This document shows, one piece after another, positions 4,069 to 6,795 of a DNA stretch of 64,000 bases. This DNA comes from Mesorhizobium sp. J428 (lineage in GTDB: Bacteria; Pseudomonadota; Alphaproteobacteria; Rhizobiales; Rhizobiaceae): NCBI RefSeq assembly GCF_024699925.1, contig NZ_JAJOMX010000001.1, positions 4,440,001 to 4,504,000 on the forward strand. The letters are read 5' to 3'. The notes beneath the pieces were generated by a model. That model saw only the letters and a list, made by a program, of their open reading frames with translations, made no database searches and was not told the DNA's origin. Position 1 is the stretch's first letter. The number at the start of each line of letters is the position of its first letter. A program made the position numbers and the translations under genes.

Positions 4069-4953
4069 ATGAAGTCCATTGTGACAATTAACGCATCGTT
4101 GCCCACCGTCGAGGATCGGTTCGAGCATTTCTCGGGGGCATCGCTCCGGGATTATGACATCGCGCTATTCGATCCCACTTTGCCATACCTTACCCGGATC
4201 GAATTTAGTGGCGGCGGTTCGTGCATTGATATCGAAAGCACAAAGCGACTTGCTTCCGCAATGAAGCATTGGGCGACGGAGATCAGCGTCGCCCTCTCGG
4301 CTGGCAAAACGATCTTTGTGCCTCTCGCTGAGTATGAGGAAGACTCCGGCGCCACCGGCTACGAACTAGGCACCCGAAACCGAAGGACATACAAAACGTA
4401 CGCGCTACACAATTACCAGGCCGTGCCGTTTCCGCTTTCGGTGAAGAACGCAAAAGGGCGCCAGATAACAGTCGCGGACGGAATGTTCAGAGGCCTCTTG
4501 GAAACTCTGAAGGAGGTTGCCTCCTATCGAGTCATTTTAGATGAGAGTGCCGGCAAACCGATATTTGCCGCGAAGGATGGAGCGGCAGTTGGTTCGGTGC
4601 TGAAACCAAAAGGCATGCCGGGCCACCTCGTGCTGCTGCCATACTTCAACATGATCGAGCACGACACCGCCGATCCCGAAATGTGGTCTGATGAAGCCGT
4701 GCGTCTGTCGCACGGGATAGTTGCGCAACTCCTCGCCGTGGATAAAGCCCTTAAGGCCGAGGGAGCCGTAACACCGCCGCCCAAGTGGTTGGCCAGCGCA
4801 CCTGTACCTAAGCAAGTGGAGGTGGTGTCCAAGGAGGTCGCGCGGATCGATGCCGAGATCGATCTGCTCGTAAGCAACAAAGCAGAAAAGCTGGCAGAAT
4901 CCGAGGCCTTGATGGCTCATTCGCGTTTGCTATTTGAGACCGGCAAGCCCTTA

Positions 4954-4957
4954 GAGG
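4954..4957. repeat. Target-site duplication, left copy (GAGG)
   Basis: The 4-bp direct repeat GAGG flanks the insertion sequence here and at 6152-6155. Deleting one copy plus the element restores an open reading frame across the host gene, which independently supports these boundaries. Confidence 0.85.
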
Positions 4958-5016
4958 TGACGTTGCCCCCTGGAATGCCCTCGGTTTGAACTGGACTCCG
5001 TCGAAAGGAGACGGAG

Positions 5017-5280
5017 ATGAAGAGAAGCCGGTTCACGGAAGACCAGATCATCGGCGTGCTGAAGGAGCACCAGGCGGGAATCCCGACGGCAGAGCTGTGC
5101 CGCAAACACGGGATCTCGGAGGCGACCTTCTACAACTGGCGTAATCGCTATGGCGGCATGGAAGTGTCGGACGCCCGGCGGCTGAGGAGCCTCGAGGACG
5201 AGAACCGGCGGCTGAAGAAGCTACTAGCGGAATCTATGCTGGACGTCGCGACGCTGAAGGAAGCACTGGGAAAGTTCTGA
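5017..5280 (+). CDS. IS3-family transposase OrfA (helix-turn-helix part)
   Basis: An 87-residue protein with AAGGAG upstream of its ATG. The N-terminal FTEDQIIGVLKEHQAG and CRKHGISEATFYNWRNRYGG form the HTH_Tnp_1 DNA-binding domain that recognises the IS ends. The C-terminal part (LEDENRRLKKLLAE) is a leucine-zipper-like helix for multimerisation. The last codons contain the heptamer G GGA AAG (5268-5274). A -1 ribosomal frameshift there would fuse OrfA to OrfB and produce the active OrfAB transposase. OrfA alone usually acts as a regulator in IS3 elements. Confidence 0.93.
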   Translation: MKRSRFTEDQIIGVLKEHQAGIPTAELCRKHGISEATFYNWRNRYGGMEVSDARRLRSLEDENRRLKKLLAESMLDVATLKEALGKF

Positions 5281-5303
5281 CGCCCAGGACAAGGAAGCGC
5301 TTC

Positions 5304-6125
5304 GTGGCCTGGGCGATCGAAGAGAAGTGCTACTCGCAGCGGCGTGCCTGCAGTCTGGTCGGGCTCGACCCGAAGACCTATCGCTATGCGTCGCGGCGAC
5401 CGGACGATGCCGCGGTGCGGGCGCGGCTGAAAGAGCTGGCGCTTGAGCGGCGTCGGTTCGGCTATCGGCGGCTGCTCATCCTTCTGCGGCGCGAGGGCAT
5501 CGAACTGAACCACAAGAAGCTGTTCCGGCTATACCGGGAGGAGCGGCTGACGGTGAAGAAGCGCGGCGGCCGCAAGCGGGCGCTGGGCACGCGGGCGCCG
5601 ATGACGCTGCCGCAGGGAGCAAACCAACGATGGAGCCTGGACTTCGTATCCGACATGCTCGCCGATGGCAGACGCTTCCGCGTCCTGGTGGTGGTCGACG
5701 ACTTCACTCGGGAGTGCCTGGCACTCGTGGTCGACACGTCACTGTCGGGCATGCGGGTGGCGCGGGAACTGGACGCCATCGTCGAGACGCGCGGCCGACC
5801 GCTGATGATCGTCTCCGACAACGGCACCGAGCTGACGTCGCGGGCGATCCTGCAGTGGCAGGAGGACAACCGCGTCGAGTGGCACTACATCGCGCCGGGC
5901 AAGCCGACCCAGAACGGCTTCGTCGAAAGCCTGAACGGCCGCTTGCGCGACGAATGCCTCAACGAGCACCTGTTCCGCGGCATGGCAGCGGCACGCCGCA
6001 TCATTGAAGAGTGGAGGATCGACTACAACGAGCACCGGCCACACACGAGCCTGCGTGGCCTCACCCCGAACGAGTTTGCAAACCGGTCCAGATCGGACCA
6101 CAAGGAGAACAGAGTCCAGTTATGA
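5304..6125 (+). CDS. IS3-family transposase OrfB (DDE integrase part)
   Basis: A 273-residue catalytic part with an rve integrase core. The DDE triad is visible as the Asp in WSLDFVSDML, the Asp in IVSDNGTEL and the Glu in GFVESLNGRLRDEC. An N-terminal HTH_21-like region (RRRFGYRRLLILLRREG) precedes the core. The GTG at 5304 is only the first possible start in this frame. The reading frame is open back to the slippery site at 5268, giving the expected join KVLTPRTRKRFVAWAIEE, so the functional product is most likely OrfAB made by -1 frameshifting. The frame is intact to its stop just inside the right inverted repeat region. Confidence 0.93.
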   Translation: MAWAIEEKCYSQRRACSLVGLDPKTYRYASRRPDDAAVRARLKELALERRRFGYRRLLILLRREGIELNHKKLFRLYREERLTVKKRGGRKRALGTRAPMTLPQGANQRWSLDFVSDMLADGRRFRVLVVVDDFTRECLALVVDTSLSGMRVARELDAIVETRGRPLMIVSDNGTELTSRAILQWQEDNRVEWHYIAPGKPTQNGFVESLNGRLRDECLNEHLFRGMAAARRIIEEWRIDYNEHRPHTSLRGLTPNEFANRSRSDHKENRVQL

Positions 6126-6151
6126 ATGAGGGCTGATCGGGGGCAACGTCA

Positions 6152-6155
6152 GAGG
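6152..6155. repeat. Target-site duplication, right copy (GAGG)
   Basis: The right copy of the 4-bp duplication made by the IS3-family element. The host gene continues directly after it with CTGCAATAGAGGCC, read in the frame that joins the upstream half. Confidence 0.85.
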
Positions 6156-6795
6156 CTGCAATAGAGGCCGCCCTCCGACTGCTTGGCTTCACGGTGGAGA
6201 ACTACCGCGTGGGCGACGTCGAAATTGATCATATCTTCGTCGGGCCGTCAGGAGTCCGGATGATTGGTGAGTCAGAGGGCAAGGAAAATTCGTCAGTAGA
6301 CATCACCAAGTTTAGACAGCTCGAGTCCAACATTAACGAGGATTTTCAGCGAGAGGAGGTAAACACACCCGCCAAGGGAGTGCTCTTCGGCAATGCCTAC
6401 AGATTTACTGAGCCCGCGTTGAGGGCAGATCATTTTACGGCCAAGTGTCTGACCAATGCAAAGCGATTGGGAACAGCGCTCGTGCGCACATCAGACCTGT
6501 ACGATGCGATCGTTCACGTCCTTGATCACCCCGACGACCATCGTTTTGTCGAGCACTGTAGAATGGCAATCGAGGAGACAAGCGGCGGCATTGTGGTGTT
6601 CCCCGCACCTGTTAAAAACTTACCCGCTAGCCAAAGCGAGTAGTTTGCGCTCCAGATGGCGACCGAAGGCAGCTTTTGGGAAGATTGTGACTAGCCCTCG
6701 AACGGCCGCAATTGGGTCGTAAGCAGACACGGTTCCGTTCAGGCGACGGTCCGCCGCCGCTGCCGGGCGTGGCCCAGTGCACTCGGCAGTTCCCG

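Follow-up and report, generated by a model that had tools for sequence, protein, structure and literature searches.

In Shedu systems, a shared nuclease domain is combined with varied N-terminal regulatory domains (PMC12137116). Here we describe a gene of comparable design, interrupted by an insertion sequence (IS), in a 64,000-nucleotide stretch of the Mesorhizobium sp. J428 genome (NZ_JAJOMX010000001.1, positions 4,440,001 to 4,504,000), referred to as the window, which sits on a 5.3-Mb contig of a 5.9-Mb genome. We assign a probability of roughly 0.6 to the reading that the product is a single-protein sensor-nuclease, most likely a stand-alone anti-phage (or anti-plasmid) effector, which is inactivated here by the IS and carried as cargo of a variable slot. 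As in the Shedu protein SduA, a putative N-terminal regulatory domain precedes a predicted C-terminal PD-(D/E)xK nuclease in one polypeptide, and by analogy the design may work like Shedu; SduA (8ps5) is also a weak match (E 0.55) in the fold search of P0002, an intact 458-amino-acid homologue from Devosia neptuniae. However, DUF4263 was sought in five family members (P0002, P0057, P0063, P0071, and P0069) and not found, so we do not place the family within Shedu; P0002 has no PADLOC match, and its N-terminus resembles class I amidotransferases (GATase1-like). The CARF nucleases Card1/Can2 (6xl1) likewise join a sensor-like N-terminal domain to a PD-(D/E)xK domain and give a Foldseek E-value of 0.077, but the N-terminal structure comparisons return GATase1-like folds, with no CARF domain among the matches listed. 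Unlike the FokI cleavage domain (1fok, 2fok), that of the family is attached to an N-terminus on GATase1-like folds, and no neighbor gene recurs beyond 5 of the 57 loci compared (980 open reading frames clustered, not all annotated). Class I GATase-like proteins share the fold of residues 1 to 232, whereas the family is fused to a nuclease and has C52 in only 24 of 52 sequences. Among the titles and abstract openings listed in a literature search, none describes a GATase-like domain joined to a nuclease.

The gene is split by the IS. Open frames at 4069-4989(+) and 6194-6643(+) lie on either side of IS orfA and orfB. The left frame encodes residues 1 to 296 followed by ten IS-encoded residues, stopping ten codons into the IS, and the right piece, open from 6155, supplies residues 297 to 458. 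The listed start at 6194 is mechanical; the true right piece starts at the insertion border, with codon 297 beginning inside the target duplication at 6155. The insertion point thus falls in codon 297, directly after the codon for residue 296, which is itself duplicated. An earlier note, made from the sequence alone, had proposed that removing 1,194 bp of IS and one 4-base duplication (GAGG) restores a 458-residue protein, and both the frames and the repeats confirm it. A profile of intact homologues (472 positions) matches the two pieces at positions 2 to 314 and 308 to 465, and identity to P0002 reaches 258/296 residues in the left piece and 145/162 in the right, so neither half has decayed. 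Two further full-length IS copies in the genome are 100% identical, from which we conclude that the IS moved recently; the note's view of a recent inactivation without decay fits these observations, and its remark on the lower GC content of the gene is borne out (0.557 and 0.537 in the left and right pieces versus 0.658 in the window). Homologues ending naturally at the insertion point, which the note had named as evidence against an interrupted gene, are not the pattern: 66 of 71 are 449 to 526 amino acids long and pass that point.

The note had also read the C-terminus as nuclease-like, and the predicted model of P0002 bears this out. Its C-terminal domain is predicted to adopt the PD-(D/E)xK core of restriction-endonuclease-like folds, matching FokI and NucS, and residues 1 to 232 are modeled as a class I GATase-like fold (3rht, ThuA-like 1t0b, and IFT52 5fmr). 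E296, D321, E335, E337, and K348 are invariant in 52/52 sequences, with D321, E335, and E337 placed as acidic metal-binding residues on a beta hairpin. The note's other ground for rejection, a predicted structure lacking a nuclease fold and this kind of residue cluster, is not what the model shows. The N-terminal domain has no invariant or near-invariant cysteine in the same 52 sequences, so that it lacks the conserved catalytic Cys of the GATases. This domain would probably be a sensor or a partner-binding module, and the long helix that follows would probably form dimers. The nuclease, of the FokI/NucS kind, would be kept silent and would cut DNA once the N-terminal domain has sensed infection. 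In this genome, the IS lies directly behind the codon of E296, the invariant motif-I glutamate, and cuts off the rest of the nuclease, so the protein should be inactive.

The split gene belongs to an intact family that is rare and widely scattered. Using the N-terminal piece as a query, we retrieved the 71 proteins mentioned above, five of which are short: the piece from the window itself and four others, which lie on contigs of 0.9 to 2.5 kb. The distant member P0071 retrieved 185 proteins, one of them from Methanosarcina among the 120 matches listed. Scanning 84,980 species genomes for a pattern, we found 56 loci that, by record names, span Alpha-, Beta-, and Gammaproteobacteria, Bacteroidota, Patescibacteria, Spirochaetes, and others. 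Within its own bacterial family the gene occurs in 5 of 394 genomes (its own included), and none of six other genomes of the genus has a member. Pfam scans of the two window pieces gave nothing usable, and sequence searches of the PDB returned nothing relevant. The family is unnamed, its pairing of an amidotransferase-like domain with a nuclease is absent from the libraries scanned, and its proposed function is open to direct laboratory test.

The chromosomal slot that carries the gene as cargo has different contents in related genomes. In G003, the nearest relative, the sequence to the left of 3779 and to the right of 6970 is 91 to 95% identical to the window, and nothing aligns between 3779 and 6702, where G003 instead carries the defense system Kiwa (KwaA, 4e-58; KwaB, 1e-57). 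This same-site evidence strengthens the earlier guess of a defense gene. In another genome (G001), the outer genes are approximately 140 bases apart by their aligned ends, like an empty site. Both end repeats of the islet are also present at a second place in the chromosome of the window's genome and of G003, where the cargo is SIR2_2 with Ham1 and adenosine deaminase in the former and a PDC-S28 helicase (1,015 bits) in the latter. Left repeats are 91.9 and 93.8% identical within a genome and 89.4 to 90.1% between genomes, a higher within-genome likeness that is expected if the sites recombine.

The defense reading rests on the slot in the genus, the architecture, and the distribution, and several observations weigh against it. 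The five intact members have no usable Pfam, NCBIfam, or PADLOC match (Pfam maximum E of 10, with filters dropping most matches above about 0.1), and one distant member reaches the PADLOC model CARF_PDDEXK at 7e-4. The predicted template modeling score of 0.52 leaves the domain arrangement uncertain, and Foldseek E-values are weak, with one match at 0.001 or below, to a sugar-utilization protein. Beyond the absence of a recurrent neighbor cluster, the gene flanking the islet described below was found in none of 64 stretches, some of which are short or overlap one another, that carry family members in other genomes. The note had suggested looking for defense genes beside intact homologues elsewhere, and this gave no countable contrast between near and far neighbors: 134 PADLOC models match among 102 near genes and 13 among 58 far genes (77 less the 19 that lie at locus ends), and by a rough reading of names, using the 25 of the 134 near models that were listed and all 13 far models, about 8/102 near and 5 to 6/58 far genes have a match, so we claim no enrichment.

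The catalytic lysine, which is out of its canonical position in the NucS register, also weighs against the main reading. When D321 and E335 are aligned with Pab NucS, with E335 as the second acid, E337 falls at K176 in the place of the lysine, and K348 is invariant on the next helix. The note's motif reading needs partial correction: E335 and E337 are invariant, its lysine, at position 339 of EGKEN, is K in 46/52 and R in 6/52 sequences, and by the NucS spacing the lysine place is taken by E337. The domain could accordingly be catalytically dead or act on a substrate other than DNA. We consider this improbable, given that five invariant residues would be unusual for a dead domain and that BamHI is an active D-ExE enzyme. 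In an alternative register with E337 as the second acid, K/R339 fits the lysine place, judged by spacing rather than by residue-by-residue structural alignment; we found nothing useful in the literature on lysine migration. It is likewise unlikely, although a little less so, that the protein is a DNA repair or processing nuclease resembling NucS/EndoMS (2vld, 5gke) whose place in the islet is incidental. The two share the nuclease fold and the D-(14)-E spacing, but the family has another N-terminal domain on other folds, a glutamate where NucS has a lysine, two positions beyond the second acid, and a sparse distribution (1 of 398 genomes in a phylum sample, namely its own, besides the family count above) that is not the pattern of housekeeping repair. 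Of the five members, only P0071 comes near NucS_C, at E 0.12 and with 12.8 bits where the cut-off is 24, and in 21 related genomes NucS_C (PF01939) itself gives only partial matches, covering 41 to 53 of 124 profile positions in 9 of them. Kiwa in the same slot of G003 argues against this explanation as well.

A gene serving a mobile element, through plasmid or island stability or competition between elements, would protect the host only indirectly. Seven Enterobacter plasmid records, six typed as conjugative, carry a 33% identical homologue, which adjoins an integrase and IS elements in the one plasmid inspected, and two IMG/VR contigs carry homologues. However, 50,697 phage records contain no family match, and none of the clustered neighbors, of whatever kind, recurs beyond 5 of the 57 loci; we give this explanation little credence relative to a stand-alone effector.

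Whether the slot itself is part of a wider arrangement can be approached through the gene in the left repeat, a minus-strand open frame of 270 arginine-rich amino acids whose substitutions are biased to third codon positions. Its named relatives are mostly from Mesorhizobium. Among 151 genomes from the bacterial family, 30 have it, with up to 17 matches each, fragments included. A mostly helical, weak model (predicted local distance difference test score, 72.9) gives no role, and Foldseek returned no chain for it. We compared 40 copies from eight genomes, 21 within the genus (four at sites A and B and 17 more, the remaining 7 of 28 matches being fragments or second parts) and 19 from three of 27 matching outside genomes, picked for having few contigs; copy L194 was dropped for lack of its 3' side. 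Low-GC DNA, defined as at least 1 kb with GC more than 0.10 below the mean within 5 kb (means of 0.655 and 0.60, set by us), is present 5' of 21 of the 40 copies and 3' of 1. The discordant pairs are split 20:0, and the sign-test value of 1.9e-6 is too small because the copies fall into 28 site groups by their 3' context, 14 of them with a filled copy, rather than 40 independent events. Cargo starts 0 to 2,650 bp from the flank gene, which led us to discard the idea that insertion occurs at a fixed point upstream of it.

The 21 filled copies comprise the window itself, two unscanned, and 18 scanned, several by PADLOC on one or two frames only. Seven of the 18 have a PADLOC match below 1e-20 to an established or candidate defense family, a count given without a matched PADLOC background for these genomes: Kiwa, a ThsA-like SIR2, PDC-S28, PDC-M71, a type II methyltransferase, and PARIS of the AriAB type in two genera. 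The other 11 comprise five weak matches (7e-8 to 6e-10) and six with none at limits of 1e-2 or 1e-3, and at the orthologous slots A, B, and C the recognized cargo differs. Tentatively, and with somewhat less than even confidence, we suggest an undescribed type of defense docking site in Rhizobiaceae-like bacteria, in which a multi-copy flank gene marks slots, new AT-rich cargo is nearly always inserted 5' of this gene, and homologous recombination between copies spreads and swaps defense genes; the cargo here would be a new family of nucleases with a GATase-like sensor. None of the titles and abstract openings listed in the literature search describes such hotspots either. The same-site comparison yields a search rule, namely AT-rich islets 5' of flank-gene copies, by which the slots without a strong match become candidates. 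The features of the islet are listed in Table 1.

Table 1. Features of the interrupted gene and its islet, in window positions
Feature	Position	Strand	Basis
Broken gene, 5' piece (codons 1-296 and base 1 of codon 297), with GATase1-like domain and coiled coil	4069-4957	+	Open frame; P0002 identity; P0002 predicted model
Target-site duplication, left copy	4954-4957		Right copy at 6152-6155
IS3-family insertion sequence, 1,194 bp	4958-6151	+	Terminal repeats; HTH_Tnp_1, rve; other genomic copies
IS orfA (helix-turn-helix, HTH)	5017-5280	+	Open frame; HTH_Tnp_1
IS orfB (integrase core)	5304-6125	+	Open frame; rve_3, rve
3' piece: predicted PD-(D/E)xK nuclease domain, residues 297-458	6156-6643	+	P0002 identity; P0002 fold versus FokI, NucS; conservation
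Codons of conserved residues	D321 6227-6229; E335 6269-6271; E337 6275-6277; K348 6308-6310	+	3' piece
Variable islet cargo; outside the IS, richer in AT than the genome	3775-6701		Kiwa cargo in G003; GC
Left end repeat of the islet, common to second site	2643-3774	-	89.4-93.8% identity, four copies
Multi-copy flank gene, ~270 amino acids	2711-3523	-	No match in Pfam at 0.01
Right end repeat of the islet, common to second site	6702-6828 (end approximate)		Alignment
Inverted-repeat intergenic element, 47-bp arms	6808-6970		Many partial copies across genomes of the genus

The interrupting element has the features of the IS3 family: an HTH orfA (HTH_Tnp_1, 1e-24), an orfB with an integrase core (rve_3, 1e-30; rve, 1e-20), first and last 12 bases that form perfect inverted repeats, and a short target duplication. 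Several of its plasmid relatives are annotated as IS3 family transposase. Of the other full-length copies, one is flanked by a 4-base duplication of its own and the other lacks one. Two copies (C1:3324053-3325682 and C1:4566485-4568113) are interrupted at an identical internal position by approximately 1.63 kb, which is probably a different element that has a target preference.

Several other slots hold cargo of interest in their own right. At the second slot of the window's genome (L099:2704-5040), the SIR2_2 gene (ThsA-like, 1e-29) overlaps the Ham1-family gene, and the adjoining adenosine deaminase (ADA) resembles the ADA half of CARF5-ADA; together they are possibly a nucleotide-targeting defense set. 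Elsewhere in the same genome (L142:6667-9097), AT-rich cargo 5' of a flank-gene copy has a weak phosphoribosyltransferase match along with AAA_28 and thymidylate-kinase matches; in three relatives, the orthologous slots are occupied by PDC-M71, AriAB, and unrecognized genes. A G003 slot 5' of a flank-gene copy (L146:3013-6957) carries a DndB-like gene below the Pfam cut-off, an unrecognized gene, and a type II methyltransferase-like gene. In a low-GC islet of a further genome (G002, L151:5661-7114), two frames weakly match pAgo-system models, one of them with a Schlafen AlbA_2 domain. In other genera, single genes or gene pairs of low GC content lie 5' of flank-gene copies at L177:4294-7574, L178:4720-6933, L181:3919-6849, L185:6139-7290, and L192:4337-5425; their PADLOC matches are weak or absent, and we regard them as candidate defense genes of unknown type.
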